A stretch of DNA of 64,000 bases, taken from a virus. The notes under the pieces were generated by a model. It worked only from the letters and a program-made list of their open reading frames with translations. It had not been told where the DNA came from and ran no database searches. How positions within the stretch are numbered: the first letter of the stretch is position 1; each line of letters starts with the position of its first letter. Below, in pieces: positions 34,606 through 62,315 of this stretch. The position numbers and the translations under genes were made by a program. The stretch covers positions 1 through 64,000 of the IMG/VR virus record IMGVR_UViG_3300017782_004332; one strand, 5' to 3'.

Positions 34606-34608
34606 CTA

Positions 34609-34637
34609 TTGCATTATTTTTATAAAGGTGCTATAAT
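34609..34637 (+). promoter_or_regulatory. Sigma70-type promoter for clpS
   Basis: TTGCAT (34609-34614), 17 nt, TATAAT (34632-34637) preceded by AAAGGTGC, a phrase shared with the tmRNA promoter. Confidence 0.75.
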
Positions 34638-34665
34638 ACTTAAATACTATTGAGAGGAATATATA

Positions 34666-34974: not shown

Positions 34975-34980
34975 TAAGTT

Positions 34981-34986
34981 TAAATA
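34981..34986 (+). promoter_or_regulatory. TAAATA late-promoter-like box, 5 nt before ATG
   Basis: TTTAAATA then GTAGT then ATG of the heme oxygenase gene at 34992. Confidence 0.6.
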
Positions 34987-34991
34987 GTAGT

Positions 34992-35534
34992 ATGACTACT
35001 ATAAAAGAACTAACTTGGGAACATCACAAAAACGCTGAGCGTCAACAATTTGTAAAAGTTCTAATGAGCGGATCGATTGATCCTAAACTCTATGCAACTT
35101 TCCTTTTTAATCAACATCCATGCTATAACATACTAGAAGCGATTGCTACTGGTCACGGGTTACTTGATGGAATATTCGAAGTAAAACGTGCAACTAAAAT
35201 TCATGAAGACTTTTTAGAACTATGGCCGGACGAATCTAAACCTAAATTACTTAAATGTACAGATGAATACATGGAACACATTAAAAGTATCATGGATGAT
35301 CAAGATAAAATTATGGCACATGTATATGTGAGACATATGGGCGATCTAAGTGGCGGACAGATGATTCGTAAAAAGATTCCTGGCAAAGGTACTATGTACG
35401 ACTTTGATGGTGATATTCCAACAATGAAAGATAAAATTAGAGCAAAGTTAAATGATAGTATGGCCGAAGAAGCCAAGTTATGTTTTGAATTTGCAACTAA
35501 CACATTTAAAGAACTAATGGAGATTGAAATTTAA
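34992..35534 (+). CDS. ho: Heme oxygenase
   Basis: 180 residues, shorter than many plant/cyanobacterial homologues but complete. Cleaves heme to biliverdin IX-alpha, CO and iron using reduced ferredoxin. Visible: proximal-histidine helix TWEHHKNAE (His11/12) and distal helix YVRHMGDLSGGQMI with the family GD-x-SGG motif. One base separates it from the bilin reductase that would use its product. Predicted leaderless late expression. Confidence 0.92.
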   Translation: MTTIKELTWEHHKNAERQQFVKVLMSGSIDPKLYATFLFNQHPCYNILEAIATGHGLLDGIFEVKRATKIHEDFLELWPDESKPKLLKCTDEYMEHIKSIMDDQDKIMAHVYVRHMGDLSGGQMIRKKIPGKGTMYDFDGDIPTMKDKIRAKLNDSMAEEAKLCFEFATNTFKELMEIEI

Positions 35535-39485: not shown

Positions 39486-41111
<1,626 letters not shown>

Positions 41112-43474: not shown

Positions 43475-45538
43475 ATGGCTGATAACAGGTATTACGAATT
43501 AGCAACACACAACGAAGCACAATTTGATGAATTGTTTCTAGAGATAACAGGAACAGCATCAAGCCCAGATACAATTCCAGATAGAGCAGTTGAAAACACA
43601 GAATACTTTCAACATAGTCCTGTGCGTGGAGAATTTTTACTTACTGACGATGAAGCAGAAAATTTAAAAACAGATGCAAGAATAAAATACATTCAACTAT
43701 CACCAGACAAGTATCCTGATATTTTTAACGCAACTGAAGATGACCTTCGTGCAGACGTTACAGGTAATGAATATGAAAGATATAGTTTTTCTGTTAAGAA
43801 CTATCAGTTCTGGGCAAATAGTGGGGCGATATCAAGTGCATTTGGTACAGGCGCGGCAGATCTTAATCATGCATCAAATCAACTTTATAGAATGGGTCAA
43901 CAAAGAAACCCATGGATTGTAAGTGGTACTAGTAGTACAACTGCTATCTCAGATACTATTACACAACGAGGTGCAGGAGAAGATATAGATATTATTTGTG
44001 CTGATAACGGAACATGGATTGGCCATGTTGAATTTATTAATACAGGTGTTACTAATGCTGTTAATCCAGATGATTACACAGGCGGTAATGTTTTACCCGG
44101 CAACGGATATTGTGATGTATTAGATGTTATTTTAGATGGACCTTATTATATAGATCCAGATTGGTTTAACGCTGATGCGGCGACTAGATTAACCACACGT
44201 TGGGACGGAACAACAGTGCCTGTAGAAAGTGTTGCTAGAACATGGTGGGGAAACAGTTCTCAACGTTCTGCCGCATTTGCTAGTGCAGGAACAGTAACAA
44301 TAAGTTCATTTTACACAAGAGATGGTGTACATGGATCTAACACAACACATCCAACAGGTGCCGCGGCTACACACGGAACTCAGTGTGCAAGTTTGATATA
44401 CGGTCGTACACACGGTTGGGCATACAACGCAAACAAATGGCATTTAAATTTATACGGCGCTAGTAACGCAGGGTCAATTGAGCGTGGGTTTGATATTCAA
44501 AAGATTTTCCATGAAAACAAACCTAACAATTCAAGATACGGAACTAAAGATCCAACTATAAGTTCAAACAGTTGGGGATATAGAGCAGACAAGTCAGGAA
44601 CACATTATTATTTTCGTGATAGCGGAGCAGTAAGTTATCCTGGATCAGTTGACGAACCAGAATTTTTAAAGTATATGGGTATAGATGGAGATGGTGGTCG
44701 TTGGAAATCAGAATTTTATGATAATAGTTTAACTCAGGCTGGAGAAGAATTAGTAAACAGTGGAGTTATTTTTGTAGTGGCGGCTGGCAACAGTGGACAG
44801 ATGCAAGTTAATCCAAGCCATCCTAATTACGATAATAGAATTGCTAACAATAATACTGATAGTTTTTACAATACCACTTACAGTAGTTTTGGTTATAGTG
44901 TTACAGGGTCTACAAATAGAAGAGGTTTCCCACAACACATTGGTAAATCAGTAAGTCAAAGTTCACAAGGTGATACAGTAAACTTTCCTGCTATTAACGT
45001 AGGAGCACTAGATGATTCATTTCAAACTGGTCCATTAGAACGTAAAGTTAATTATAGTGATATGGGGAATGCTATTGACTTATACGCACCTGCAGACGGA
45101 ACACTTGCGGCGGCAGTAGGAACATATGGAACTGATGTTGCACGTCATGATGATACTTACACAGATCTATCAACAACAGATTGTCGTGATACACGCTTTA
45201 GTGGTACTTCAGCGGCATGTCCAGTTGCGGCAGGATTTTTAGCAACTATCTTACAATACAATAGAGGTTGGACTTATACTGATGTACGAAATTGGATTAC
45301 AACTAATGTTCAAGGTGTTGACAGCACCAACGAATTTTATGTAGGCACAGAAGATACTACAGCCGAAAGCGCCGGTTGGGCTGATCGCAACAAACCACAA
45401 AATAGTGCAGATGATGTACGAGTTCTTTATCTAGCACCTTTTACAATTTCAACACCCGACCCACAAACAAACCCTACTGTTTCAATTGGTAATGGATTAA
45501 CGTTCAGTAAAGGTCTAGTTCTTAAAAGACGTGTGTAG
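43475..45538 (+). CDS. Virion-type protein with subtilisin-like protease domain
   Basis: 687 residues. S8 subtilase triad is visible: Asp in IICADNGTW (about 176), His in THGTQCASLI (about 300), Ser in FSGTSAACPVAAG (about 578); the oxyanion Asn lies in VFVVAAGNSGQ. The N-terminal ~120 residues precede the catalytic domain and the C-terminal ~90 are fibre-like. No signal peptide. In a fibre operon, it may be a tail protease acting on host surface proteins or maturing fibres. Confidence 0.85.
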   Translation: MADNRYYELATHNEAQFDELFLEITGTASSPDTIPDRAVENTEYFQHSPVRGEFLLTDDEAENLKTDARIKYIQLSPDKYPDIFNATEDDLRADVTGNEYERYSFSVKNYQFWANSGAISSAFGTGAADLNHASNQLYRMGQQRNPWIVSGTSSTTAISDTITQRGAGEDIDIICADNGTWIGHVEFINTGVTNAVNPDDYTGGNVLPGNGYCDVLDVILDGPYYIDPDWFNADAATRLTTRWDGTTVPVESVARTWWGNSSQRSAAFASAGTVTISSFYTRDGVHGSNTTHPTGAAATHGTQCASLIYGRTHGWAYNANKWHLNLYGASNAGSIERGFDIQKIFHENKPNNSRYGTKDPTISSNSWGYRADKSGTHYYFRDSGAVSYPGSVDEPEFLKYMGIDGDGGRWKSEFYDNSLTQAGEELVNSGVIFVVAAGNSGQMQVNPSHPNYDNRIANNNTDSFYNTTYSSFGYSVTGSTNRRGFPQHIGKSVSQSSQGDTVNFPAINVGALDDSFQTGPLERKVNYSDMGNAIDLYAPADGTLAAAVGTYGTDVARHDDTYTDLSTTDCRDTRFSGTSAACPVAAGFLATILQYNRGWTYTDVRNWITTNVQGVDSTNEFYVGTEDTTAESAGWADRNKPQNSADDVRVLYLAPFTISTPDPQTNPTVSIGNGLTFSKGLVLKRRV

Positions 45539-45585: not shown

Positions 45586-45864
45586 ATGGATTTTTTAACG
45601 TTTATCGGTGAAGTTGGTTTTCCTATAGCAGGAGCAATCGCCGCAGGCGTATTTGTTTTCACAACATTAAAATTTATTCTAGCAAGTGTAACAGGATCTG
45701 TACAAGGTCTTAAAAATATTATCAATGCACTAGACAATCGTGTGCAAACAATGAATAATGATCTAATTAAAATTGATGCCCTACTATCTCATGTAGTTGG
45801 GGTTAAACCTAACATAGAAAGATTAGCCGCGAACGAAGGCAAGGAAGATGCAAGGAGAGATTAA
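45586..45864 (+). CDS. Small membrane protein, holin-like layout, paralogue 1
   Basis: 92 residues: one or two hydrophobic helices (about 8-40, FPIAGAIAAGVFVFTTLKFI) then a charged helical tail with a LDNRVQTMNNDLIKIDALLS heptad-like stretch. The same order (GFPI-x-helix, then MLDNDMIRLNTKLS) occurs in the 106-aa gene at 46246. Candidate holin/phage membrane effector. TAAATA box and GAGGG ribosome site. Confidence 0.65.
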   Translation: MDFLTFIGEVGFPIAGAIAAGVFVFTTLKFILASVTGSVQGLKNIINALDNRVQTMNNDLIKIDALLSHVVGVKPNIERLAANEGKEDARRD

Positions 45865-46245: not shown

Positions 46246-46566
46246 ATGACATCAGAGTTAGCGGCGGCAATAAAAGACTTTGGCTTTCCTATTGTTGCGG
46301 CAATGGGTTTAGGTTACTTTGTCTACTATGTTTGGCAATGGGTAACACTACAAGTTAAACCTGTTCTAAGTGATGCTAGTGCAACACTTATTAAATTAGT
46401 AGATCGTATTCGTATGCTAGACAACGATATGATTAGACTAAACACAAAATTATCTATGATACTTGAATACTATCAGAAAAAAGGTATGGAACCTGATAAG
46501 GATCTAGAAAAAGTTATTACAAAATATCAATCTCAAAGTAATACACTTAAACAAGATAAAAAATAA
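46246..46566 (+). CDS. Small membrane protein, holin-like layout, paralogue 2
   Basis: 106 residues, hydrophobic helix (about 12-35) followed by a coiled-coil-like tail ending in lysines. Alignable by eye with the 92-aa protein at 45586 (GFPI start, LDNDMI/MNNDLI helix), so the pair derives from duplication. Converges on the cyclase gene with no gap. Confidence 0.65.
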   Translation: MTSELAAAIKDFGFPIVAAMGLGYFVYYVWQWVTLQVKPVLSDASATLIKLVDRIRMLDNDMIRLNTKLSMILEYYQKKGMEPDKDLEKVITKYQSQSNTLKQDKK

Positions 46567-48618
46567 TTATTTGGTTGTTGCTATAAAGACGCCGTTCCAG
46601 TCTTTAGGTAAGTCTTGTGTTTTCTGATATTTACAACGTTCAATCCACATATCATAATAAGCATCCATTTGTCCATCAAATTGTCCTTTAAGGTCTTTAC
46701 ACATTTTAATAGCAATATCAAAACGTTGATCTTTATATTCTTTGTGCATATGATCGTGTAGTTCTTTTGCCTTAGCATGATCTTTTATAACAATATCTAA
46801 TACTGTCCATATACCTATTCCTACACTCTTGCCTTTAACAGCAAGATCATCTACTTTTAAGTAGAAGAAATCATTCTTAGTTGCTTTATAAGTTGTTTCA
46901 CCTACTAATAGCAAACATCCGTATTCTTTACACTTGCTTTCAATTCTTGCGGCTGTGCTGACGGCATCACCAAGTACATCGTAGGAGTGTCTTGCTGTCG
47001 ACCCCATTTCTCCAAGGTAACCAAGTCCGGAGTTAATACCCGCTCCCATACCGATGGCTGGCCTTCCTTCTGCTGTAATTTTTTCATTAAACTTCTCCAC
47101 TGCTCGTAGCATATTCAATCCAGTGCGGACTGCACTCTTAGGATGATCTGGATCATCAAGTGGTGCACCATGTACATGCATACTTGCATCTCCTATATAC
47201 TTAATTATCATTCCGTTTTCGTTTAAAACAGGTAAAGTAATAGCGTCCATATATGAGTTCATAAGTGTTGTCAATCCTTTTACATCATCTCCAAAACTTT
47301 CACCCAAAGGAGTAAAGCCTCTCAGATCACTGAAGCAGATTGAAATTTCTTTCTTCATGCCTTCTTTGATCAGTGCAGGATTTTCTTGTAGCATACGCAC
47401 AACTGTTGGTGATGCATATCCTGCGAACTGTTTCTTAATTGCTTGTTTTTCAAAGAACTCTTTGGAAAATCGATTGAACACAGAATGGAAACCAACAATA
47501 GTAGTTACTAGTACTATCCAACTCCAATCCCATAACTGTAGATGCCCTATAAACGCTGTATAAGCACCGTACACAGGCGCTATGATTACTGTAAGCATAG
47601 TAGTACCAACGACCCAGTAAGGCGCTTTAAACGCTATTATAATTAGAATAAGACCTATAATAGTAGCAGTTATATACTCTAAAAACGTAGCATAATCAAA
47701 ACGTACAATAGTATCCCCATTAATGATAGTTTGGAGACTTGTGCCTATAAGTTCGTGTGCATATCGTTCTCCGTTTGGAGTAGCAATAATACTGCCTATA
47801 CCTTCTGCTGTAGTTCCAATAATAACTGTTTTGCCTGCAAATTGTGTGTAATCTTGTTCTGTTATACTGTAGGTAGGAAACTGCTTGTTCCAACGTAGCC
47901 ATATCTGTCCATTTGCATCTGTTTTGATTGTGGCGTACTTTGGAATACGCATTGCAGTAATACCGCCTTCTTGCGTTTTAACTTGATAACTTGGATCTCC
48001 AACAGCAACTCTGATGGCTTCAATTGCTATAGCAGGATATGTTTCGTTGCCTACACGTACAATAAGTGGCATTCTACGTACAACCCCGTCTATCTCTGAA
48101 CCTGTGTTTAAAACTCCAACACCGTCTGCATTTAATCCTAATAATTCTATTGGTCCTAACATGCCAGGCCATTCAAACAACCATGGCATAGGATCGCCTA
48201 TCTTAGCAACACCTCGTGGTACAGAATTCTTGTTTGCATTTCGCGAACCTACTTGTCCTATGACTACAGCATTACCTACTAATGCTTGAGCAAGTTCCAT
48301 GTCACCACCAAGTCTATCTTCCTCTGAAAATAATATAGGCAGTACAATTACTCCTGCACCTGACTCACGTAACTTCCATATAACATCAGCGAGTACTGAA
48401 CGTTTCCAAGGCCATTGCCCATACTGCTCGATCGCTTTTTCGTCTATCTCAAGTATGGCGATATCTTCGCTAACAACTGGAGTATCGTATTGTTGAACAA
48501 CATCAAATGCTTTTAGTCTCAATAGTTGCTTAACATAAGGATCTGAAAATCCGTATATTGTAAGAAATGCTAAAGTAATCAGGGCGGTTGCCCAGTGGGT
48601 TACATATTTCATACTCAT
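46567..48618 (-). CDS. CHASE2-domain membrane adenylate/guanylate cyclase
   Basis: 683 residues. N-terminal membrane helix (about 8-25), periplasmic CHASE2 sensor (about 30-300, EDIAILEIDEKAIEQYGQWPWKR), three membrane helices (about 310-385), then a class III cyclase domain (about 410-600): metal Asp in CFSDLRGFT and YIGDASMH, substrate Lys in KYIGD, and VLGDAVSTAARIE, where the usual transition-state Asn is replaced by Ser although the Arg remains. Would make cAMP or cGMP on a periplasmic cue. Divergent from the curli operon; FecR/CHASE2-cyclase neighbours are known in bacteria. Confidence 0.93.
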   Translation of the reverse strand: MSMKYVTHWATALITLAFLTIYGFSDPYVKQLLRLKAFDVVQQYDTPVVSEDIAILEIDEKAIEQYGQWPWKRSVLADVIWKLRESGAGVIVLPILFSEEDRLGGDMELAQALVGNAVVIGQVGSRNANKNSVPRGVAKIGDPMPWLFEWPGMLGPIELLGLNADGVGVLNTGSEIDGVVRRMPLIVRVGNETYPAIAIEAIRVAVGDPSYQVKTQEGGITAMRIPKYATIKTDANGQIWLRWNKQFPTYSITEQDYTQFAGKTVIIGTTAEGIGSIIATPNGERYAHELIGTSLQTIINGDTIVRFDYATFLEYITATIIGLILIIIAFKAPYWVVGTTMLTVIIAPVYGAYTAFIGHLQLWDWSWIVLVTTIVGFHSVFNRFSKEFFEKQAIKKQFAGYASPTVVRMLQENPALIKEGMKKEISICFSDLRGFTPLGESFGDDVKGLTTLMNSYMDAITLPVLNENGMIIKYIGDASMHVHGAPLDDPDHPKSAVRTGLNMLRAVEKFNEKITAEGRPAIGMGAGINSGLGYLGEMGSTARHSYDVLGDAVSTAARIESKCKEYGCLLLVGETTYKATKNDFFYLKVDDLAVKGKSVGIGIWTVLDIVIKDHAKAKELHDHMHKEYKDQRFDIAIKMCKDLKGQFDGQMDAYYDMWIERCKYQKTQDLPKDWNGVFIATTK

Positions 48619-48739
48619 ATTTACCTAGTCAGACCGTCAAATTTCCAACATTCTTGTTGTACAAATTATTTCGACCGTCAAAATTTTGTACCAGCATTAT
48701 TTGTGGGGTGGCGTTGGTAAATACGTATGGAGGGCAATA
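48619..48739. promoter_or_regulatory. Divergent regulatory region, cyclase / curli operon
   Basis: Contains two direct copies of GACCGTCAAA (about 48632 and 48673) and an inverted repeat GTACAAA...TTTGTAC spanning the second copy. On the minus strand each copy reads TTTGACGGTC, which includes a -35-like TTGACG. A TAAATA box (about 48718) and GGAGGG lie before csgF. A shared operator is plausible. Confidence 0.5.
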
Positions 48740-49210
48740 ATGCGTAATAACATAACATTTAGAGTAGTACCACTAATCGGACTATTAATCGTTACTTTAA
48801 CAGCAAATTCTGTTGCTAGTGAACTAGTACATGAATTCAAGAATCCTTCCTTCTCAGGACAGGGTTATAGTAACCATGTCTTGTCAATAGAACAATTACA
48901 ATTCCAACGTAAAAAAGAAGCACAGGAAAAGGCAGAGGCAGATGCGGCCAAGGCTAAGCGTGAAGCAGAAAGCACTACACTAGCAAAGTTCTTGAACAAT
49001 GTGGAATCTCGAATTTATGCTCAACTCTCTAAACAGTTAGTAGATAATATGTTTACTGACGATGGAGACACATCAGGCACTGCTGAGATTGAAGGTGCAA
49101 CAATTTATTGGGTCAAAGATACTACCTCGGATACTATTACTGTAACAATTACAAATGAAGACGGTACTACCACAGAGATAGTTGTTCCATTAAGCGGATT
49201 TGGATTTTAA
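48740..49210 (+). CDS. csgF: CsgF-like curli assembly factor
   Basis: 156 residues from ATG 48740 after GGAGGG. Signal peptide (about 1-26), then ELVHEFKNPSFSGQGYSNHVLSIEQLQFQ, the hallmark N-terminus of CsgF that inserts into the CsgG pore, then a helical K/E/A-rich middle and a beta-rich end. Couples secretion to surface nucleation of curli. Just upstream of csgG. Confidence 0.88.
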   Translation: MRNNITFRVVPLIGLLIVTLTANSVASELVHEFKNPSFSGQGYSNHVLSIEQLQFQRKKEAQEKAEADAAKAKREAESTTLAKFLNNVESRIYAQLSKQLVDNMFTDDGDTSGTAEIEGATIYWVKDTTSDTITVTITNEDGTTTEIVVPLSGFGF

Positions 49211-49214
49211 GAAA

Positions 49215-50249
49215 ATGAGTAAGATATTGGGTCTGTTTGTGTTATTAACACTACTAGGTGGCTGTGCGACTACTATGCCCGATTCTATGGTCAAAGATCC
49301 ACAAGCGGCAAGAAGTCCTATTGCAAGTATTTTAAAAACAACACCTGAGTTAGACGGACCATTAATCACTATAGCACTTTATAGTTTTACAGATAAAACA
49401 GGACAACGTAAGCCTAGTCAAAATTTTAGTCAATTAAGTTCAGCAGTTACACAAGGTGCTGAAGTTTGGGTCATTGACGCACTACAAAAAGTAGGTAATG
49501 GAACTTACTTTACAGTTTTAGAAAGAATAGGATTAGATAATTTAGTAAAAGAAAGGCAATTAATTAGATCAACAAGGGAGATATATGAAGGCAAGAAAGG
49601 GCAGAATAAATTAAAACCAATGAAGTTTGCAGGTTTAATTTTAGAAGGCGGTGTTGTTGGTTATGACTCGAACATAACCAGTGGTGGCACAGGAGCAAGA
49701 TACTTTGGTATCGGTGCTAACACACAATATCGTACTGACAAAGTTACAGTTGCAATAAGAATTGTGAGTGTACAAACTGGAGAAGTATTATTAAGTGTAG
49801 CCACTGAAAAAACAATCGCCAGTTATTCGTCCGGAGCGGATGTATTTAGGTTTCTTGATTTAGGGACAAAAGCATTAGAAATTGAGGCTGGTGCGGCAAT
49901 CAATGAACCGACCAATTATGCTGTGAGGTCCGCTATTGAAGCGGCTATAGTTGAATTGGTGAAAAATGGAGAAATAAAAGGTCTTTGGAAGTTTAAAGGA
50001 AAAGTGTACAAAGAAAAAGTTGTAGAGGTGCCGAACCAACACAATGAAGTCAAAGTAGATACTCCTTTACCAAACCTCCGCCCACTGCCAGACGTTGAGG
50101 CGTTTAAAAAGTGGCCGGGTCAGACTTTGTATTGTTCAGAGGATAATCTGTGTATACCATCAGATGTTGCTGTGATGCAGTTCAAGTATGAAAGACTGAG
50201 ACAAGAAAACAAAGAAAACAAAGATAGCGAGGATAATAATGATGAATAA
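49215..50249 (+). CDS. csgG: CsgG-like curli secretion channel lipoprotein
   Basis: 344 residues from ATG 49215 (a TTG at 49200 overlaps the csgF end). Lipobox LGGC (Cys about 17). CsgG family features: ITIALYSFTDKTGQRKPS, GAEVWVIDALQKVGNGTYFTVLERIGLDNLVKERQ, and the GGVVGYDSNITSGGTGARYFGIG strand pair that forms the barrel. Oligomerises into an outer-membrane pore exporting curlin subunits. C-terminal ~75 residues extend beyond the family core. Overlaps the curlin gene. Confidence 0.93.
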   Translation: MSKILGLFVLLTLLGGCATTMPDSMVKDPQAARSPIASILKTTPELDGPLITIALYSFTDKTGQRKPSQNFSQLSSAVTQGAEVWVIDALQKVGNGTYFTVLERIGLDNLVKERQLIRSTREIYEGKKGQNKLKPMKFAGLILEGGVVGYDSNITSGGTGARYFGIGANTQYRTDKVTVAIRIVSVQTGEVLLSVATEKTIASYSSGADVFRFLDLGTKALEIEAGAAINEPTNYAVRSAIEAAIVELVKNGEIKGLWKFKGKVYKEKVVEVPNQHNEVKVDTPLPNLRPLPDVEAFKKWPGQTLYCSEDNLCIPSDVAVMQFKYERLRQENKENKDSEDNNDE

Positions 50250-50946
50250 ATCATTTGCAATAAGAAATATCCTTTTTGTGGCTATGTTAATCTTTATTTC
50301 ACCGGTGCAGGCGAATGACATTTACATTCAACAGTCAGGTGACAATTTGGATTTAGATATATCACAAGACGGACAAAACAACGTAATCGGTACATCACAA
50401 ACTGGTGTGACTCTTACCGGTAACGCCATGACGTTTAACATTGACCAAATTGGTGGTGCTAACGTTGTATCAGCAATAGTTAAAGGTGTAACTTACACAG
50501 GTAATATTGATCTTACTGGTGACAGTAATGATGTAGCATTACTCTGTGATAGTGCAGGAGCAGGAAACTGTGATACTGTAAGTTTGAGTATTGACATAAC
50601 TGGTTCAAGTGCAGATATTAATGTAAGTGTAGGTGAAGCGGCAGACGCAGAAACCTTCACTGGTACAATAGATATCACAAGTGGTGCATCTGAAACAGTT
50701 ACACTAACAGTAGACGGTAAAAGTGCAATAGCAGATATTGACATTTCAAACAGTTTAGGTAGTGCAGGTAATACAGCAGTGATTGACATTAATGATGATG
50801 GCGATGTCAACGGACACACTTTAACACACAGTCATACAGGAGATGGCGGATTGATTAATATTACGCAGAGCGGGTTATACGATAATATAATTAATCTTAC
50901 AACCAGTGGTGACAGTGCTGATATCGACATAACGCAGGACGATTAA
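50239..50946 (+). CDS. Curlin-repeat protein (CsgA/B-like), secreted
   Basis: 235 residues with signal peptide (about 1-26, ending VQA). Mature part consists of N/Q/D/T/G-rich strands: IYIQQSGDNLDLDISQDGQNNVIG and later NITQSGLYDNIINL match the curlin Q-x4-N-x5-Q type; the middle repeats are more degenerate with D replacing Q/N. Predicted amyloid-forming substrate of the CsgG pore. 2-nt gap to the FecR gene. Confidence 0.8.
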   Translation: MMNKSFAIRNILFVAMLIFISPVQANDIYIQQSGDNLDLDISQDGQNNVIGTSQTGVTLTGNAMTFNIDQIGGANVVSAIVKGVTYTGNIDLTGDSNDVALLCDSAGAGNCDTVSLSIDITGSSADINVSVGEAADAETFTGTIDITSGASETVTLTVDGKSAIADIDISNSLGSAGNTAVIDINDDGDVNGHTLTHSHTGDGGLINITQSGLYDNIINLTTSGDSADIDITQDD

Positions 50947-50947
50947 C

Positions 50948-52054
50948 ATGCTAAAACATGTTCTCATACATACCGTCCTCTTATTTGGTTTTTCATTCCC
51001 TGCCCTTGCGACTATTGGCGATGTTATCCAACAAGAAGGTAACGCTGTCATTGAACGTGAGGCAGGAGAAATAGTTACAAGCCAAAAAGATACTGATGTG
51101 TTTAGTATGGACACAGTATTAACACAGCAAGGAGCAACTTCTATTCAATTTATAGACGATACAAGAGTTGACGTTACTCCGCATAGTAAATTAGTAATAG
51201 ACGATTTTGTTTATGATCCTAATTCTAAAACAGGTGCTCTGTCGTTAAAAGCATCTTTAGGAACTGTTAGATACGCAAGTGGACAAATAGCAAAAAATTC
51301 AAGACAAAATGTCAAGATAAAAACACCAACAGCAGTGATTGGTGTTAGAGGAACAGATTTTACCATGACCGTCGATGAGACTGGTAGTACTATGGTAATC
51401 CTACTGCCCAGTTGTACAACAAATGGGATATGTATAGTAGGAGAAATTTCAGTGGAGTCAGACGTGGGTATAGTAATACTCAATCAGGCCTTCCAAGTTA
51501 CTTCTGTTGACACTCCTAAGAGTGCTCCACTGAAACCCTTATTGTTAGATCCAACTAATTTGATCATTAATAATATGTTGATTATACGCAAACCTGTGTA
51601 TGACGATGAACAACAAGAATATGAAAGAGTTAGAAAGTTAGGCGACTTCTTAGGCGTTGACTTTTTATCCTTTGATGAACTTAATACAAACTACTTTGCA
51701 GAAAGTGAAAAAGGTCTTTGGATGACCGATTTAGACATAGACTTCTTAGGTCATAACTTTCTTGCAAACGTATTAGATCAAATTAATCAAGCATTAGCAA
51801 GACTTATGCGTGGAGCATTAGACTCAAGACAAAAGGGTATACAGTTAGGTAAAGATCCAGAAACAGGAATAGAATTGTATGATCAAAACCCAGACTGGGT
51901 ATTAAGACGTGATGACGGATTAGGAAACTTTTATGAATTACGTTTAGATCAACAGTATGGTTATAATATTAATATGCAACAGAACGATTTTGAATACAGA
52001 GACTACCAACTTGGAGATGGACAAAATGAAATTGACATTGTCCAAACACAATAA
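50948..52054 (+). CDS. FecR-domain periplasmic protein
   Basis: 368 residues. Signal peptide (about 1-22, PALA), then a FecR domain (about 30-160: VFSMDTVLTQQGATSIQFIDDTRVDVTPHSKLVIDDFVYD, then GTVRYASGQIAKNS...VKIKTPTAVIGVRGTDF). The C-terminal half is charged with QYGYNINMQQNDFEYRDYQLGDGQNEIDIVQTQ, itself curlin-repeat-like. FecR proteins paired with CHASE2 cyclases are a known bacterial arrangement. Overlaps the next gene by one base. Confidence 0.88.
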   Translation: MLKHVLIHTVLLFGFSFPALATIGDVIQQEGNAVIEREAGEIVTSQKDTDVFSMDTVLTQQGATSIQFIDDTRVDVTPHSKLVIDDFVYDPNSKTGALSLKASLGTVRYASGQIAKNSRQNVKIKTPTAVIGVRGTDFTMTVDETGSTMVILLPSCTTNGICIVGEISVESDVGIVILNQAFQVTSVDTPKSAPLKPLLLDPTNLIINNMLIIRKPVYDDEQQEYERVRKLGDFLGVDFLSFDELNTNYFAESEKGLWMTDLDIDFLGHNFLANVLDQINQALARLMRGALDSRQKGIQLGKDPETGIELYDQNPDWVLRRDDGLGNFYELRLDQQYGYNINMQQNDFEYRDYQLGDGQNEIDIVQTQ

Positions 52055-53517
52055 TGTTTGAGAGATTTATTATAAGATTGGCACTTGTATTATTTGTACT
52101 TATGGTGATGTTAGCATCTAAACCTGTACAGGCTAATGACGCATTTATATATTATAAAAATAGTGGTACCTATGCTACTACAAGCCAGTACAACAACTTA
52201 AAAACAGAACTTGAAGATGCAGGCTTTACTGTTTCAAGTAGCACAAGTGGTACTGTAAGTTCAAGTGATGTGTCAGGTCAGGACCTTGTGATTGATATCA
52301 CAGGTGGTTCAAACTGTGGTAGTACTTGTAAATCAGTGTATGACAGTTATGTTAGTGGTGGTGGTAAATTAGTTATAGTAGGAACCTACGGAGCAACCAA
52401 CAGAAATAGCAGTATAGAAGCACTGATCGAAACTAAGATGAGTGTAGGAAGTTTCACTTTAGGTGGAGGTTGTAGTACTTGTTATAGTTCAGTTGCTGTA
52501 GGAAATTACGCTTCAACAGGTGTAGCAGGTGAGAATGTTTTACCAGGTACAGACCACTATATGTACAGCGTATCTGGTGGTACCGCAATGGCTAATAACT
52601 CCACCAGTAGTTCTAATATAAGAATGTGGCACAAATGGGACTATGGTAGTAATGGTGGAAGTGTAGCAGTTACTTTTGGTTATGGACAATTTCTTTCAAC
52701 TCACACGTATGCAAGTAATATGAATGACTTCTTGTATCGAGCAATGCAAGAAGAAGGATTAATTACAACAGCGTCTTATACTTCAAGCATCAGTAACGCA
52801 CAGACCACACAAATGACAACATCAAGAGGTGTAACACACAATGGTAATGGAATATACATTAATCAAGTAGGCAACAGTAATTCACTTACTATTGTACAAG
52901 ACGGCAATGATAACTTAATAGCAGGTGTTGGTAGTACAACAAACAGTTTAGTTGATGCAGATATTACAGGAAATAACAACACTACTACACTAAAACAAAA
53001 AGGTAACAACAATGTTATGTTGTTTGATATTACAGGCGATTCTAATACGACAACTGTTGATCAAGGTAGTACATCAGGTGCAGATGATAATAGAGTTGAG
53101 TTTGATATTAATGGCGACACTAATACAACAAGTATAACACAAAATCATAACAACGGTATAGGAACTAATGGACACTTCTTTGCATTAGATTTAGATGGTG
53201 ACAACAACAATGTTTTAGCAAGTCAACTCAATGACGGAGATAAAAAAGCATTCCTAAGTGTACAAGGTGATGATAACGACATTGATCTAATACAACAAGG
53301 TGCAGGTTCGCACTATGCAGAAATTGCTGTTGGCAGTGATCAAACTGTTGACATTACACAAGACGGCAGTGGACAACATAACACTTCAGTGTCTATGTCA
53401 GGGTTTAGTGCAACACTTGACCTTGATCAATCTGGTTCAACAAATCAAACATATTCAATAAACCAATCTTGTATAAATGCAAATGGTTGTGGTACAACTA
53501 CTGTAACACAACAATAA
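52054..53517 (+). CDS. Large secreted protein with C-terminal curlin repeats
   Basis: 487 residues. Signal peptide (about 1-28). Residues 30-240 form a separate alpha/beta domain (AFIYYKNSGTYATTSQYNNLKTELEDAGF..., cysteine-containing, ThuA/flavodoxin-like impression only). From about 265 on, repeats such as IYINQVGNSNSLTIVQDGNDNLI and TTTLKQKGNNNVMLFDITGDSN are curlin-like. May be a nucleator or a functional domain displayed on the fibre. Last gene of the curli operon. Confidence 0.8.
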   Translation: MFERFIIRLALVLFVLMVMLASKPVQANDAFIYYKNSGTYATTSQYNNLKTELEDAGFTVSSSTSGTVSSSDVSGQDLVIDITGGSNCGSTCKSVYDSYVSGGGKLVIVGTYGATNRNSSIEALIETKMSVGSFTLGGGCSTCYSSVAVGNYASTGVAGENVLPGTDHYMYSVSGGTAMANNSTSSSNIRMWHKWDYGSNGGSVAVTFGYGQFLSTHTYASNMNDFLYRAMQEEGLITTASYTSSISNAQTTQMTTSRGVTHNGNGIYINQVGNSNSLTIVQDGNDNLIAGVGSTTNSLVDADITGNNNTTTLKQKGNNNVMLFDITGDSNTTTVDQGSTSGADDNRVEFDINGDTNTTSITQNHNNGIGTNGHFFALDLDGDNNNVLASQLNDGDKKAFLSVQGDDNDIDLIQQGAGSHYAEIAVGSDQTVDITQDGSGQHNTSVSMSGFSATLDLDQSGSTNQTYSINQSCINANGCGTTTVTQQ

Positions 53518-53523
53518 TAAATA
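53518..53523 (+). promoter_or_regulatory. TAAATA late-promoter-like box, 4 nt before ATG
   Basis: TAAATA overlaps the stop codon region of the previous gene; CGTT then ATG at 53528. No ribosome site. Confidence 0.5.
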
Positions 53524-53527
53524 CGTT

Positions 53528-53947
53528 ATGAACAAGAGTAGGTGGCAACGTTTTAAAGAATGGTGGACCATTGATCATGTAGTTGATCTTTGTGTTGATG
53601 CATTGCTTTTAATATGGGAAGTAGTTTCAAGTCCTATTCTTATTGTTGTTAGAATTATTAGACACTTTATAGGTGATTGGTTTGTTGGCGGACTTAAACG
53701 TATTGCCCGAGCAATAGTTCATTGGTTTGCACGTAAGAGAGCATACCGCAAAGAACACGGACACGGAATATTTAGAACCTATTGGTACCTAATACTAACA
53801 AGTCCTTTTATAGCATTTTTCCTTTTTATTTTTCTTGCAATGATAACAGGTATTGCACAAGACCTTCCTGAAATGTTAGAACTGCTAATACGTGGTTGTG
53901 ATTCTTTACAGCCTGCCGCAGAACAATATTGGTGCAATATTAACTAA
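53528..53947 (+). CDS. Membrane protein
   Basis: 139 residues: hydrophobic segments at about 15-50 and 95-115 separated by a basic stretch (LKRIARAIVHWFARKRAYRKEHGHG). No family recognised. Possibly leaderless late transcription. Confidence 0.62.
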   Translation: MNKSRWQRFKEWWTIDHVVDLCVDALLLIWEVVSSPILIVVRIIRHFIGDWFVGGLKRIARAIVHWFARKRAYRKEHGHGIFRTYWYLILTSPFIAFFLFIFLAMITGIAQDLPEMLELLIRGCDSLQPAAEQYWCNIN

Positions 53948-53979
53948 ATATATTTGTTACAAGAGAAGGGCGAGGGTAA

Positions 53980-54462
53980 TTGATTGATCCAATATCAGCG
54001 GTCATGGCCGCAACATCAGCCTTCAGCACAGTCAAGAAGTTTGTAAGTGCTGGACAAGAGTTTGAACAAGTAGCAGGCCAACTTGGCAAATGGTACACAG
54101 CAGTCAGTGACTTCCGCCACGCACAACAAGAACAAAAGAAACCACCCTTATTCAAAAAATTATTTGCCGCAGGTAGTGTAGAAGAAGAAGCACTACAACT
54201 CCTAATACACGAAAAGAAAATCATGGAGCAAGAAAAAGAACTTGCGGTGTTGCTGAACCTACGTTTCGGATACGGGACAATGGAAGAACTCAAAGAGATG
54301 CGTCGAAAGATTAGAACCCAGCGTGAACGCACCATATACAGACAAGCACAACGAAAGAAAGCATTCATTGAAGCAGTGTCAATTGCCGTATTGTTAGGTG
54401 TACTTGTTGTTGCTGTAGGTATTATGTTTTGGTTTATAGGAAAGGCGAAAGGTTTATTTTAA
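53980..54462 (+). CDS. Helical protein with C-terminal membrane anchor
   Basis: 160 residues from TTG 53980 after GAGGG. Long charged helices (about 10-130) then one membrane helix (about 133-155). Begins MIDPISAVMAATSAFSTVKKFV, a start found in small phage proteins of T4-like marine phages with unknown function. Adjacent to the next gene without a gap. Confidence 0.6.
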   Translation: MIDPISAVMAATSAFSTVKKFVSAGQEFEQVAGQLGKWYTAVSDFRHAQQEQKKPPLFKKLFAAGSVEEEALQLLIHEKKIMEQEKELAVLLNLRFGYGTMEELKEMRRKIRTQRERTIYRQAQRKKAFIEAVSIAVLLGVLVVAVGIMFWFIGKAKGLF

Positions 54463-54762
54463 TTGAGATATGTTTATGAGAACTATGTTTTTGTAAATGA
54501 TAACAACAAAGGTATACTTTACAAAGACAACACATTGGTGTTCATGGGAAATGCCTGGACTGGCATAAACATATTCTTAAATTCTACAAACCATGCTCAA
54601 GAAGTCCGAGACATGTTTAAATCACAATTAGATCAACGAGAGCAAATTAGATTCAAAGCAGAATCTAAAAAACCCAAAGACCCTGATCCTATACAACGAC
54701 CAGAGCCAAAGAAAGATCCAGTGTTAAGGCGTTCAAGGAATGACCGGAGACTTGTTAGGTGA
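54463..54762 (+). CDS. Hypothetical protein with basic/proline-rich tail
   Basis: 99 residues from TTG 54463. Folded-looking N-terminal 55 residues (YVYENYVFVNDNNKGILYKDNT) and a K/P/R-rich tail. Overlaps the next gene by 4 nt. No family recognised. Confidence 0.55.
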   Translation: MRYVYENYVFVNDNNKGILYKDNTLVFMGNAWTGINIFLNSTNHAQEVRDMFKSQLDQREQIRFKAESKKPKDPDPIQRPEPKKDPVLRRSRNDRRLVR

Positions 54763-54977
54763 TACACGCATTTATGTTAGTAGTATTGATTGGTGGAGAC
54801 TTACAACCAGCACCTATGTATTTTAGAAGTATTGATGTTTGTCAATACTATGCTAAACGCATACCAAGACAGTATGGAAACTATTCACACAGTAGTTTAG
54901 TACCTTCTGAACACAGAGTTACAGCATATTGTAAGCCTGTAAAAGTCCAGGACGGACCTAACATATACGATCATTAA
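54759..54977 (+). CDS. Small hypothetical protein with hydrophobic N-terminus
   Basis: 72 residues from GTG 54759. N-terminal hydrophobic segment (AFMLVVLIGG), then C-containing mature-like part (VCQYYAKRIPRQYGNY...TAYCKP), so probably exported or membrane-anchored. Confidence 0.55.
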   Translation: MIHAFMLVVLIGGDLQPAPMYFRSIDVCQYYAKRIPRQYGNYSHSSLVPSEHRVTAYCKPVKVQDGPNIYDH

Positions 54978-55006
54978 GATGGTAAATACAAAACAAAGGA
55001 GTTGTT

Positions 55007-55228
55007 ATGGAAAAAGTAATTAATATCAAAGAAAATGCTCGTGTAGAAGACGAGGATTATGTAAAGTCAAAAGAAGAACGCAAAGCAGTTGAGGCTAATA
55101 AGGCTCCAGCAGTTGAAAAAGGCGTTGACCCTTCAATTGAATATACAGATGAAAATAGAGAAGAAGTAAATGATTCTGATCTAGAAAAACCTGTTCACGC
55201 AGTTGCTACAAGTAAAAATAGAAAATAA
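55007..55228 (+). CDS. Small acidic hypothetical protein
   Basis: 73 residues, highly charged (E/K/D/V/A), probably disordered. Strong AAAGGAG ribosome site and an upstream TAAATA. The end overlaps the convergent DUF3307-like gene by 34 nt. Confidence 0.6.
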   Translation: MEKVINIKENARVEDEDYVKSKEERKAVEANKAPAVEKGVDPSIEYTDENREEVNDSDLEKPVHAVATSKNRK

Positions 55229-55557
55229 TAGGTTGTGATATGCAGGCTTTGGTCTACAGTCTGCAACAACCAAAATTCCCTATCACTTTCAATAATATTA
55301 TATTTCTTCTTAATATAAGTTTTAGAAAAATCTATATTCCAGTGTGCAATATGATCTATTATTCCTAGCATTAGTGCAATCTGAAAATCTACAAAAAAAG
55401 CACTTATTACAAATGTTAATAATGAATGATGTAGATAATGTATTTGTGCTCGTGGATTAAAATAGAATTGCTTAACCGATCCTGTTACAAAATATCTTTG
55501 TAATGCTAAGTCGGCTATTGTGTGTTTGATACAGTACCAGAAGAAAAGTTCCATCAA
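55195..55557 (-). CDS. DUF3307-like membrane protein
   Basis: 120 residues, hydrophobic with conserved polar residues: HTIADLALQ, HYLHHSLLTF, DHIAHWNIDFSK and TVDQSLHITTYYFL, the H/D pattern of DUF3307. About three membrane helices. Isolated on the minus strand. A GTG/ATG choice at the start shifts the N-terminus by one residue. Confidence 0.68.
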   Translation of the reverse strand: MMELFFWYCIKHTIADLALQRYFVTGSVKQFYFNPRAQIHYLHHSLLTFVISAFFVDFQIALMLGIIDHIAHWNIDFSKTYIKKKYNIIESDREFWLLQTVDQSLHITTYYFLFLLVATA

Positions 55558-55637
55558 CAGTAATTACCCTCGCTCGTTGGGGACATTGTTATTTACTGGT
55601 TTTGGAAAAATAATAAACACGTAGTTTAAAAAAGTGG

Positions 55638-55669
55638 TTGACCTTTGAGTAGAGTTGTGTTACTATATA
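55638..55669 (+). promoter_or_regulatory. Sigma70-type promoter
   Basis: TTGACC (55638-55643), 17 nt to TACTAT or 20 nt to TATATA (55664-55669). Confidence 0.6.
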
Positions 55670-55703
55670 AACATAGTTAGGAATTAGACAAGAGGAGTAT
55701 TCC

Positions 55704-55967
55704 ATGGCTTACTGGACTCACACTAAAAATCCAATCGGCGCATTTACGGAAAAAGATGTAGGAAACATCTTTGAGTATTCTGTGAATGACGATCAGTTTA
55801 ATATCGACATGCCCCACAAAATATGGGTAGGCGGATTAGTGAATGACTCCGGTTTTAGATATGGCCAAGTTAAAAAAACTGTGGCGTATATCGTTACCGA
55901 CGAAGACGATTATGGATTGCCAGTTGTTCAAAAATGGCAAATTAAAAATCAGCGGGAGTATAGTTAA
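55704..55967 (+). CDS. Small hypothetical protein
   Basis: 87 residues, beta-rich and acidic (YWTHTKNPIGAFTEKDVGNIFEYS). AGAGGAG ribosome site; own promoter and followed directly by tRNA-Arg. No family recognised. Confidence 0.62.
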   Translation: MAYWTHTKNPIGAFTEKDVGNIFEYSVNDDQFNIDMPHKIWVGGLVNDSGFRYGQVKKTVAYIVTDEDDYGLPVVQKWQIKNQREYS

Positions 55968-55974
55968 TATCTTA

Positions 55975-56051
55975 CTGCCCGTAGAACAACTGGATAGTTC
56001 ATCAGTCTTCTAAACTGAGGGTTGCAGGTTCGAATCCTGCCGGGCAGGCCA
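55975..56051 (+). tRNA. tRNA-Arg (anticodon TCT)
   Basis: Acceptor CTGCCCG/CGGGCAG, D-stem GAAC/GTTC, anticodon stem TCAGT/ACTGA with loop CTTCTAA (TCT reads AGA), T-arm GCAGG-TTCGAAT-CCTGC, encoded CCA. Confidence 0.95.
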
Positions 56052-56054
56052 ATT

Positions 56055-56150
56055 CGTAGCACAGAAGTGCTACATTTAAGGAAAGATCTGGGGATCCGTG
56101 AGCGTTGTTTGTATGGGACTCCGTGTTCATAATGAGCCAGATCATCAAGT
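56055..56150 (+). ncRNA. Structured intergenic element, candidate small RNA
   Basis: Between tRNA-Arg and the ClpP-like gene. GTAGCAC/GTGCTAC forms a hairpin with loop AGAA, and GATCTGG (about 56085) pairs with CCAGATC (about 56135), enclosing about 45 nt rich in G and T. No ORF fits. It would be on the tRNA transcript. Unknown RNA. Confidence 0.4.
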
Positions 56151-56186
56151 AGGCGGGTTGGGGGCTGTACTTGGAATAATTAAAAG

Positions 56187-56216
56187 TTGACAAATGACTA
56201 AATATACGTATATAAT
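56187..56216 (+). promoter_or_regulatory. Sigma70-type promoter overlapping a TAAATA box
   Basis: TTGACA (56187-56192), 18 nt, TATAAT (56211-56216); a CTAAATA lies inside the spacer, so early and late signals may overlap. Confidence 0.68.
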
Positions 56217-56224
56217 TAATTGTT

Positions 56225-56788
56225 ATGCCTAAATATGATAATTGGAATAGTTCTGACGCAGTAGATAGATCGTTACTTGATAACGACATATACTACCTAA
56301 GCGGAGAAATTACTAACGAAAACGTTGGTGAATGTATCAAATGGATTCTTAGTGCAAATTTAGTTAAGAAACCAAAGAGAACCTTAGAACTTTATATTAA
56401 CACAACCGGCGGAGATCTATATGAGATGTTTGCTTTAATTGATGTAATGAAAAACAGTTATCACAATATAAGCACAGTAGGTGTTGGTGCTGTTATGAGT
56501 GCCGGATTTATGATTTTTGCAAGTGGTACAAAAGGATATCGTTGGATTGGTAAGAACACAGGTATTATGAATCATCAACATTCAGACACAATGGAATCTA
56601 AAATGCATGACATGAAAGCACAGATGAAAGAAAATAATAATTGCGAACAAAGATGTATGCAAATTCTTAAAGATGCAACTGGAATGAGTGTCCAGGAAGT
56701 TAACAGTAAATTTATTAAAAATCCTAGTGATCAATATTACACAGCCAAACAATTGGTTGACCTAGGTATAGCAGACGATATATTATAG
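56225..56788 (+). CDS. Divergent ClpP-like serine protease
   Basis: 187 residues with the ClpP/crotonase fold: DIYYLSGEIT, LELYINTTGGD, then VGAVMSAGFMIFASG with Ser92 in the nucleophile position and IMNHQHS with His117, and DQYYTAKQLVDLGIADDIL at the end where the third triad residue (Asp) is expected. Residues match ClpP less well than the copy at 61719, especially in the ClpX-contacting surface. It could form mixed tetradecamers, act as a separate protease, or be a head-maturation-type protease. Confidence 0.82.
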   Translation: MPKYDNWNSSDAVDRSLLDNDIYYLSGEITNENVGECIKWILSANLVKKPKRTLELYINTTGGDLYEMFALIDVMKNSYHNISTVGVGAVMSAGFMIFASGTKGYRWIGKNTGIMNHQHSDTMESKMHDMKAQMKENNNCEQRCMQILKDATGMSVQEVNSKFIKNPSDQYYTAKQLVDLGIADDIL

Positions 56789-56795
56789 AGGTAAC

Positions 56796-57284
56796 ATGAA
56801 AAAATTTAAAGACAATGTAGACGACTTTTTTAAATGGGTCAAAGGCACAGAACTTGTAGAACTAGACGACATTGATGTAGCAGAAGATCCGGTAAGGCCT
56901 GAACTAACACTAGGATTTAGAATCACGCATGGACGTAAGATTTTTGGGCTAAAGTACGAAAACGAAATTGAAGCAATCGTTTGTACGGCGGCCTGTCCTG
57001 AAGTTCCATTTACTGTAAGAGAAATGGATTACATGTCACAGGCGGCAAATCAGGGTGCTGAAAGAGGTCAAATTCTTGTTGCATACACAGTATGGTCACG
57101 TAAGCGTGGTGCAGGTAAAGAAATTATTAAAAAGTTAGGCGAATATGCAGATACTCAAAACTTTGAGAGACTAGTTACATTATCACCATTAACACCTATG
57201 GCTACCCACTTTCATATCAAGAATGGAGCCAAGCAAGTAAACATTAACGACGAAACTCAAAATTTCGAATATAAGTTAAATTAA
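56796..57284 (+). CDS. Putative GNAT-like acetyltransferase
   Basis: 162 residues. A beta-strand, then VWSRKRGAGKEIIKKLGEYA resembles the R-x-x-G-x-G/A acetyl-CoA loop and helix of GNAT enzymes, followed by HFHIKNGAKQV, a common GNAT end (F-x-x-x-GF/A). Substrate unknown. GAGG ribosome site, 7 nt after the ClpP-like gene. Confidence 0.6.
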   Translation: MKKFKDNVDDFFKWVKGTELVELDDIDVAEDPVRPELTLGFRITHGRKIFGLKYENEIEAIVCTAACPEVPFTVREMDYMSQAANQGAERGQILVAYTVWSRKRGAGKEIIKKLGEYADTQNFERLVTLSPLTPMATHFHIKNGAKQVNINDETQNFEYKLN

Positions 57285-60447: not shown

Positions 60448-61722
60448 ATGGCATTACCAAAAGGCCCTAGAAAAAAGAAACCTATAGTTAGACGCACCAA
60501 AGGTAACGAACCATCGTACGATGGTGTTGAACAACTAACTGGTAAAGCATACGGTAGTTTTAGATCGGCATGCCAGGACCATTATCGTATGGAATTTAAA
60601 ACTTCAGATTACAAACAATGGACTATAGATTATCTAGAGAATATTGAATACGGAAAATACAAAGACGTTATTAGTATTGTAAAAAAGAATCCAGATAATA
60701 ATTTTAGTTCGACACTTGGCGGTCTTTGTAGAATGCGTTTAAAGGGTGTTGCTGATTACAACGAAGAGTATGATACCTATTGGCAGTCATTGCCTGGTAC
60801 TAGTGGTTTTGTAAAACCAATGAGTGCGTTTATTCAACGACAGATAGAAGAATTAAAAGAAAAAGGCAATGCCATTGTTGAAATTAAGCAACAAGAAAAA
60901 AAGAAAGAAGAAGAAAAGCCAAAAAAATATATTCCAACTATACAAGAAAGAATACAAATGGCAATCCCAGCAATGACTGATCAATTTGAAGATGCTATTG
61001 ACGAGTTTGCAATGCAAAGCAGATTAGACTTTAAAGATATTAAACCTTTAACAATATTCCGTCAGCGTGATGTTAAACAACCACATGCAAAGATTATTGC
61101 AGAAATATACGAACCTGCACTAGCAGAAATGCGAGAACTGTTAAATCCGCCTGTATTAAAAACAGAACATGATAAAGATTTTCATCAACAATTAAAAGAT
61201 GGTTATTCACATTACGATAAAAAACAAATTAAAAAGTTATATGAATTTTATTCTTCAATAATTACTGCCTGTGATGGTATCATTGCAGAACGTAAGGCTA
61301 GCCGTAAACCACGTAAATTGAGTGTTAAGGCCCCAGAAAAAGTAGTAGCCAAATTGAAATATAAAGTTAGTGACGCAACATATGGAGCAAGTATCGAACC
61401 ACATAAATTCATTATGGCAAATATGTTGGTAATTTTTAATTGCAAAAATAGGAAATTGGGCGTATACTATACTAATAATGAAGATCCATTGGGCCAAAAA
61501 AGAGACGGTACTGGTCTTTATTTGAAAGGACAAACTATCCAACGATTTGATGAAAAGACATCGGTATGGAAAGTGTTACGTAAACCACAAATACAACTTG
61601 AGGAAATGCGTAATTTAAATACAAGACGTAAATTTGAAAACTGGTGGAGTACTGTTAAAACTACTGAGACTAAGATGAATGGCAGAATTAACCCAGAAAC
61701 AATATTGATAGGAGTATATTGA
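60448..61722 (+). CDS. Conserved-type phage protein of unknown function
   Basis: 424 residues. Basic N-terminus ([15 protein letters not shown]), a helical K/E-rich central part including a charged coiled-coil-like linker (about 140-170), and a C-terminal half (about 270-424) with [40 protein letters not shown]. Similar proteins are found in T4-like marine phages; no function known to me. Overlaps clpP by 4 nt and so is co-expressed with it; TATAAT-like sequence upstream. Confidence 0.65.
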
Positions 61723-62315
61723 TGAGTAACCTAGTACCTATGGTGGTTGAAAAATCACATGACGGAGAAAGAGCCTATGACATTTTTAGTCGTTTGCTTA
61801 AAGATCGTATCGTTTTTTTAAACGGTCCGGTGCATGACGGTGTAGCACATAGTTTAACTGCACAACTAATTTTATTAGAATCAGATAGTGGAACAAAACC
61901 GATCCACTTTTATATTAATTCACCGGGTGGTGTAGTAAGCAGTGGTATGGCAATTTATGATACAATGCAATATATCAAGTCTCCTGTTTATACATATGTT
62001 ATGGGTCAAGCGGCATCAATGGGATCTTTACTTGCTCAGGCAGGTGATCCAGGACACAGGTATATGTTGCCACATGCAAGACACATGATTCACCAACCAA
62101 GCGGTGGTGCTAGTGGTCAAGCAACTGATATTCAAATTCATGCAGAAGAAATTATCAAACTTAAAAAAGAATTAACAGAAATATATGTTAAGCATAATTC
62201 AAAAGAAAAAACATTTGATGATTTAAGTAATGATATGGAACGTGATAAGTTTATGACTGCCTCAGAAGCACTTGAATACGGACTTATTGATGAAATCTTT
62301 GAAAGGAGAGACTGA
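61719..62315 (+). CDS. clpP: ClpP protease subunit
   Basis: 198 residues, canonical. Triad visible: Ser99 (GQAASMGS), His124 (HMIHQP) and the Asp of MERDKFM near the end; INSPGG and YDTMQYI helices normal. N-terminal propeptide is short. Forms the tetradecameric barrel that partners ClpX. Co-transcribed with the 424-aa protein. Together with clpX, clpS and the ClpP-like gene gives the phage its own protease set. Confidence 0.97.

Follow-up and report, generated by a model that had tools for sequence, protein, structure and literature searches.

Why should a phage carry the genes for an amyloid exporter next to a pair of putative signalling proteins? The question is raised by positions 46567-53517 of the virus record IMGVR_UViG_3300017782_004332, of which we analysed the first 64 kb (hereafter the window); the whole IMG/VR record spans 104,925 bp and may be incomplete. 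A first-pass annotation had placed six genes in this region, encoding CsgF, CsgG, two curlin-like proteins (here CurA and CurB), a FecR-domain protein and a CHASE2 cyclase, and all six were found at the coordinates it gave, with clear support from Pfam for all but CurA. Judged by sequence, it is close to certain that together they are a curli-type module for export, intact and equipped with a pair of sensor proteins. We propose, with a probability of about one half, that this is a phage-borne, self-contained system for amyloid export and sensing, in which a head-bearing coat would be monitored by FecR, CHASE2 and cyclic AMP (cAMP).

Gene content of the module

The plus-strand genes begin with a CsgF-like extracellular plug or nucleation factor (48740..49210), which matches PF10614 (E 3e-17, 63 bits against a cut-off of 25.8). 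The annotated open reading frame (ORF) can extend to a TTG at 48686, but the most likely start is the ATG at 48740 because relatives start there. It is followed by a CsgG-like outer-membrane lipoprotein pore with a lipobox (LGGC; 49200..50249, plus strand), matching both PF03783 (E 2e-50) and the solved CsgG of Escherichia coli (E 3e-52). Its C-terminal extension of about 75 amino acids (aa) is missing in most relatives. CurA, a putative secreted curlin-like subunit of 235 aa with the C-terminus ITQDD (50239..50946, plus strand), stays below the Pfam cut-off (Curlin_rpt, E 0.016, 15.5 bits) and was assigned by similarity and synteny: it is 50% identical to a gene annotated as CsgB at the equivalent position in phage HTVC008M. 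Next comes a predicted periplasmic protein of 368 aa (50948..52054, plus strand) with a FecR domain at aa 56-150 (E 1e-9), and then CurB, a second curlin-repeat protein of 487 aa (52054..53517, plus strand; Curlin_rpt, E 7e-10, 39 bits against a cut-off of 20.7). CurB consists of an N-terminal head (52135..52797), recognised by structure prediction, and curlin repeats with a C-terminal strand ending in TVTQQ (52849..53514).

The cyclase gene (46567..48618, minus strand, 683 aa) combines a CHASE2 sensor (aa 19-321, E 3e-42) with a class III nucleotide cyclase domain (aa 422-598, Guanylate_cyc, E 2e-16). It is separated from the divergent csgF by 121 bp (48619..48739). The cyclase is divergent from the operon and not part of it. 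The stable unit also reaches upstream of 46567 and includes two small genes, T1 and T2. In PHROG, every family of the module is annotated as unknown function. A T4-type late promoter driving the operon was rejected, as the motif TATAAATA was found neither in the intergenic region between cyclase and csgF nor near the operon; it is not enriched in the window either. CsgE, CsgC and CsgD were not detected in the operon, and the CsgE gate (PF10627) had no match in the 104,925-bp record, which is possibly a fragment. This periplasmic gate is present in E. coli but is not universal among curli systems.

Conservation of the module among phages

A module of this kind is already known. The order CsgF-CsgG-CsgA/B-FecR-CsgA/B-cyclase was described in pelagi-myo- and podophages, together with its expression in metatranscriptomes, and curli genes made up about 0.1% of the assembled viral proteins in GOV2.0 (PMC9599517, published in 2022). 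Earlier and partial versions were reported in PMC7029224 and PMC9004378. The identification as a pelagimyophage curli cluster thus agrees with the modules of HTVC008M, Melnitz and PMC9599517; the sensor proteins are present as the first-pass annotation had said, but they are not an addition, being part of the published module.

When the proteins of 50,697 phage records were searched, CsgG homologues were restricted to HTVC008M, Melnitz strains and one unannotated 1.5-kb record, while scans of IMG/VR yielded many further loci, about 100 of them with an intact module. The six genes follow one order (CsgF, CsgG, CurA, FecR, CurB, CHASE2 cyclase) in nearly all sufficiently long loci. The place of the cyclase varies. 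Most relatives have it at the end of the operon on the same strand; the window and its closest relatives, L002 and L003, have it inverted and upstream, and L103 and L105 carry it inverted at the opposite end. All six genes are under purifying selection: comparison of the window with L003 or L002 gave ratios of non-synonymous to synonymous substitution rates (dN/dS) of 0.09-0.26 for each gene analysed, values that led us to reject pseudogenes or decay.

Pseudogenes in relatives, or a cyclase/FecR pair confined to this one phage, had been named beforehand as findings that would refute the first-pass interpretation. Neither was found: the genes of relatives are intact and evolve within the dN/dS range given above, the set recurs in HTVC008M, Melnitz and the roughly 100 IMG/VR loci, and FecR and cyclase accompany the cluster in essentially all relatives with enough flank. 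As predicted from sequence, the components that are conserved together comprise CsgF and the CsgG pore, a pair of exported subunits of the curlin type, a FecR protein exported by Sec and an inner-membrane class III cyclase with CHASE2.

Some database entries for these genes deserve comment. Melnitz is said to lack csgA and csgB (PMC9004378), contrary to its record MZ577097.1, where 52015-56876 is annotated as encoding FecR, the cyclase and two proteins with curlin repeats. Phage curli modules have been binned into bacterial metagenome-assembled genomes (MAGs), namely a TMED10 'Planctomycetaceae' MAG (L021) and a Pelagibacter MAG (L022); both look like phage contigs because L021 carries the T1/T2 pair and, immediately before the module, a gene resembling lysozyme. 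The Salmonella phage S.Kent 1-2-1 record OR851715.1 (1,499 bp) encodes a CsgG of about 41% identity and is possibly host DNA.

The C-terminal strand of FecR

The FecR protein starts with an N-terminal signal sequence followed by the FecR domain and has no N-terminal cytoplasmic anti-sigma domain, and no gene for FecI (sigma factor) or FecA (TonB receptor) was found beside it. An iron-responsive FecR of the extracytoplasmic function (ECF) type (FecA-FecR-FecI) was rejected, since neither domain layout nor neighbours fit.

What sets the curli-linked FecR proteins apart is their C-terminus, a strand matching [IV]-x-[IVL]-x-Q with 0-3 residues after the Gln; many curlins end likewise. In the window, this curlin-like strand (GDGQNEIDIVQTQ) is encoded at 52013..52051 (plus strand). 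Counting distinct complete sequences, we found it in 96/96 curli-linked FecRs and in 0/87 other FecRs, but the sequences are related, so a Fisher value for these counts is not a probability. The background is low, with 22 matches in 4,994 other ORFs of more than 100 aa (~0.4%), several of which are undetected curlins. Furthermore, an alignment of 45 homologues shows no variation at Gln366 but poor conservation in the region preceding it, and the strand is retained in the FecRs of Caulobacteraceae, which are only about 31-34% identical overall. Because, among the FecRs counted, only the curli-linked ones end in such a strand, the protein may be in contact with the amyloid or with its exporter.

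Pairing of FecR with CHASE2 in bacteria

FecR next to a CHASE2 cyclase is a general bacterial pair. Leaving the curli set aside, a CHASE2 gene was present in 19 of 76 bacterial FecR loci, and in 11 of the 76 FecR lies directly upstream of it on the same strand. The phage module has the same composition, an exported FecR-domain protein encoded together with a CHASE2 receptor. FecR is also paired with CHASE2 in a biofilm operon of Burkholderia (PMC5192318), in Campylobacterota an outer-membrane FecR protein is encoded in clusters with CHASE2 cyclases (PMC9239204), and CHASE2 cyclases of Sinorhizobium meliloti act with the outer-membrane barrel NsrA. The recurring arrangement is one of outer membrane, FecR and CHASE2; by analogy, CsgG would be the outer-membrane partner in the phage. 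At two loci (L042, 9803-11635; L067, 9932-11620), C-terminal parts of FecR-domain proteins show weak or sub-threshold matches to outer-membrane barrels (Alginate_exp, OMP_b-brl) and could represent FecR-barrel fusions.

FecR and cyclase were stated not to belong to bacterial curli operons (PMC9599517). Two contigs of Caulobacteraceae MAGs (L019 and L020; 32 and 82 kb) are rare counterexamples. Both carry CsgF-CsgG-curlin-curlin-FecR-CHASE2 cyclase in one direction, surrounded by genes for an amidohydrolase, acyl-CoA dehydrogenase, methylmalonyl-CoA mutase, TonB receptor and glycosyltransferase. Among bacteria such a combination is uncommon: the canonical curli loci of Caulobacteraceae relatives (L230-L243) have no FecR or CHASE2 nearby. 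A FecR search of 385 alphaproteobacterial genomes recovered a long curli-type FecR in one genome only, which was already known.

The cyclase

All phage sequences keep the two metal-binding Asp, the Lys that binds substrate and the Arg of the transition state. Of the residues typical of class III adenylate cyclases, which also include a substrate Lys-Asp pair and a transition-state Asn, the window lacks only the Asn. The enzymes fall into two subtypes, Asp-Ser in that of the window and Ser-Asn in the other, and the subtype can change under a conserved sensor: L254 and L104 are 74% identical in CHASE2, but their cyclase domains share 47% identity and differ in subtype. In line with this, CHASE2 distances between pairs of sequences follow the distances of FecR (correlation 0.77), CsgG (0.71) and CsgF (0.73), whereas the cyclase domain reaches only 0.48-0.57 (0.48 with FecR), all of these correlations being confounded by shared phage ancestry. 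The sequences fit a kept CHASE2 sensor with an exchangeable cyclase enzyme.

The head domain of CurB

The large N-terminal domain noticed in the 487-aa curlin corresponds to a fold predicted with high confidence. It comprises the first 220 mature residues and occurs in dozens of phage CurB proteins, a count biased by one scan that targeted the head itself. An AlphaFold model based on a 34-sequence alignment reached a predicted local distance difference test (pLDDT) score of 90.5, and the N-terminal domain of IFT52 superimposes on it with Z 17.0 over 203 residues (root-mean-square deviation 3.3). Other high matches were an OST48-type oligosaccharyltransferase subunit, GH42 domains and ThuA-like proteins; a fold family missing from this VIA-align list is not thereby excluded. 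According to the model, the head is a class I glutamine amidotransferase-like (GATase1/ThuA/IFT52-like) fold over the whole domain.

At the same position, HTVC008M has a PA14 domain (27.7 bits against a cut-off of 24), and in many relatives CurB consists of repeats without any head. Both head types are followed by a similar linker of the I[ST]NAQTT type (ISNAQTT in the window, ITNAQTT in HTVC008M), and then by the repeats. By inference, an amyloid stem that stays the same while its head is exchanged would fit a display adhesin.

The small membrane proteins T1 and T2

T1 (45586..45864, plus strand, 92 aa) has one N-terminal hydrophobic segment and then a putative coiled coil, and T2 (46246..46566, plus strand, 106 aa) is its paralogue; both belong to phrog_18771. 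In most phage loci the two paralogues, of 90-115 aa with one N-terminal hydrophobic stretch each, immediately precede CsgF; the pair is present in 79 of the 103 distinct module loci, and many of the others end before that position. Within the phage collection, T1/T2 occur only in curli-bearing phages, apart from two marginal matches in Listeria records, and they were not found in the Caulobacteraceae loci. The Melnitz homologue of T2 shows a faint similarity to holins (phrog_4898, E 1e-4). One or two histidine kinases were reported at this position of the module (PMC9599517), and T1/T2 may be these genes, possibly mislabelled.

Proposed function and alternatives

In our proposal, both CurA and CurB would leave the infected cell through CsgG-CsgF. 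CurA would provide the mass of a predicted fibre, on which CurB would display its interchangeable head, probably a ligand- or glycan-binding adhesin. In the periplasm, the C-terminal strand of FecR would contact unexported curlin or the CsgG-CsgF pore, and the FecR domain would relay this occupancy state to CHASE2, setting cyclase activity and with it host cAMP. The cyclase would then report on the export or surface state rather than act as a transcription switch for the operon. For the phage, the benefit may be a block to superinfection, the aggregation of cells or both. The proposed export and sensing is supported by the conserved gene order in diverged phages, the purifying selection, the match of CsgG to its solved counterpart, the CurB heads that alternate around a shared linker, the FecR tail, the FecR-CHASE2 pairing and the tracking of FecR by CHASE2. 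Its most specific part is also more tentative, namely that FecR is an amyloid-tailed periplasmic sensor whose strand docks into curlin in transit or the CsgG-CsgF exit, with the CHASE2 cyclase converting curli export to cAMP.

Several observations weigh against this proposal. The Pfam curlin repeat did not match the FecR tail even at E 10, and because of this the resemblance rests on the motif count and the invariance of Gln366. In the full-length FecR model (low predicted template modelling score, 0.46), residues 300-366 form short strands with a moderate pLDDT of 60-75. The transition-state Asn is replaced by Ser in the cyclase subtype of the window (22 phage sequences), no phage-encoded cAMP receptor (PF00027) was found in the record, which is possibly a fragment, and common descent of the phages could itself make CHASE2 and FecR diverge in parallel. 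In S. meliloti, the FecR gene beside cyaD1 is dispensable for signal perception (PMC5498481). Finally, Melnitz infections proceeded without clumping (PMC9004378), the only wet-lab evidence that we located.

Instead of being a sensor, FecR could be a structural nucleator or anchor of the fibre, analogous to CsgB, with an independently acting cyclase. Its C-terminal strand resembles those of CurA and CurB, its gene sits between the two curlins and no gene is clearly CsgB; but FecR pairs with CHASE2 in bacteria without curli and CHASE2 diverges in step with it, which makes a purely structural role unlikely. Somewhat less probable still is the role in lysis timing that was put forward for Melnitz (PMC9004378), in which CsgG(F) would be a gated pore that, with T1/T2, depolarises or opens the envelope late in infection, and the curlins would be secondary. 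The main support comes from T1/T2, which adjoin CsgF in most modules and show the faint holin similarity; the missing match to the CsgE gate in the 104,925-bp record and the lysozyme-like gene just upstream in the phage-derived contig L021 point the same way. A pore, however, needs neither the export signals and heads of two curlins whose genes are under purifying selection nor a FecR with a curlin-like tail, and the Caulobacteraceae contigs carry the same operon without T1/T2. We consider it improbable that CsgG serves as an uptake pore for large nutrients or siderophores with FecR as iron regulator, an idea found in PMC7029224 and PMC9599517. In its favour, the channel of a CsgG that lacks the CsgE gate could stand open, and a FecR domain is present, but this FecR is Sec-exported (domain at aa 56-150), lacks an anti-sigma domain, has no FecI or FecA beside it and pairs with CHASE2 instead, and curlins and heads are left unexplained. 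Neutral passengers carried by recombination would agree with the variable gene order around the module and the inverted cyclase in some loci, but are hardly credible in view of the dN/dS of 0.09-0.26, already refuting for most genes, the intact module in about 100 loci and its expression in metatranscriptomes (PMC9599517).

If export sensing by FecR and CHASE2 is correct, the phage carries a feedback circuit signalling to the infected cell that the amyloid coat is being laid down, Caulobacteraceae possess a cellular form of the same circuit, and a sensor family with largely unknown signals gains a concrete ligand. Among phages that infect abundant ocean bacteria curli genes are widespread, and the FecR tail, the CurB heads and T1/T2 make the question of their function specific; these parts, together with the cellular operon, are worth following up. 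The CurB head, the FecR tail, the generality of the FecR-CHASE2 pair with the Caulobacteraceae operon, T1/T2 and the cyclase swap appear to be new, as we found no earlier description of them.

Genomic context of the phage

The phage is T4-like, its NrdA being nearest to those of Pelagibacter phage Mosig, HTVC008M and Synechococcus myophages. The window contains an alphaproteobacterial-type permuted transfer-messenger RNA (tmRNA; 17088-17586) and a glutamine riboswitch (4460-4512), both of which are also reported for Melnitz. A subtilase-domain protein with about 40% identity to cyanomyophage proteins is encoded just upstream of the module (43475-45538), and ClpX, a GroEL-type chaperonin and two ClpP-family proteases are encoded at 27776-29050, 39489-41111, 56225-56788 and 61719-62315. 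At 32739-35534, a gene of the class I/II pyridoxal phosphate (PLP)-dependent aminotransferase family, which may be 5-aminolevulinate synthase-like, lies near a heme oxygenase; both are possible haem metabolism genes.

Comparison with known systems

With the curli system of E. coli (csgBAC-csgDEFG) the module shares the CsgG pore, CsgF and curlin-repeat subunits; it adds FecR and the CHASE2 cyclase, whereas CsgE, CsgC and CsgD were not detected in the operon. The FecR-CHASE2 units of other bacteria (PMC5192318; PMC9239204; cyaD1/NsrA of S. meliloti) likewise encode a CHASE2 sensor enzyme together with a FecR-domain protein of the periplasm or outer membrane, but they come without curli, their FecR has no curlin-like tail, and the output in Burkholderia is a histidine kinase. 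The Caulobacteraceae operon has the same gene set, co-oriented, and a FecR with the curlin-like tail; it differs from the phage module in its chromosomal setting, in having both curlins before FecR, in a FecR of about 31-34% identity and in that no T1/T2 were found.

The type VIII module of pelagiphages (PMC9599517; also PMC7029224) comes from myovirus relatives of the same family and has the same order of CsgF, CsgG, CsgA/B, FecR, second CsgA/B and cyclase. In the window, by comparison, the cyclase is inverted and divergent and CurB bears a GATase1/IFT52-like head, and at the position of the histidine kinases our loci mostly have T1/T2 (84-117 aa, no kinase domain found). The clusters of HTVC008M and Melnitz share all six genes, most of them 43-73% identical, with T1/T2 upstream. 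In contrast to the window, they encode the cyclase on the same strand, which in HTVC008M is of the other subtype, and where the CurB of the window has its GATase1/IFT52-like head, HTVC008M carries PA14 and Melnitz the repeats without a head.

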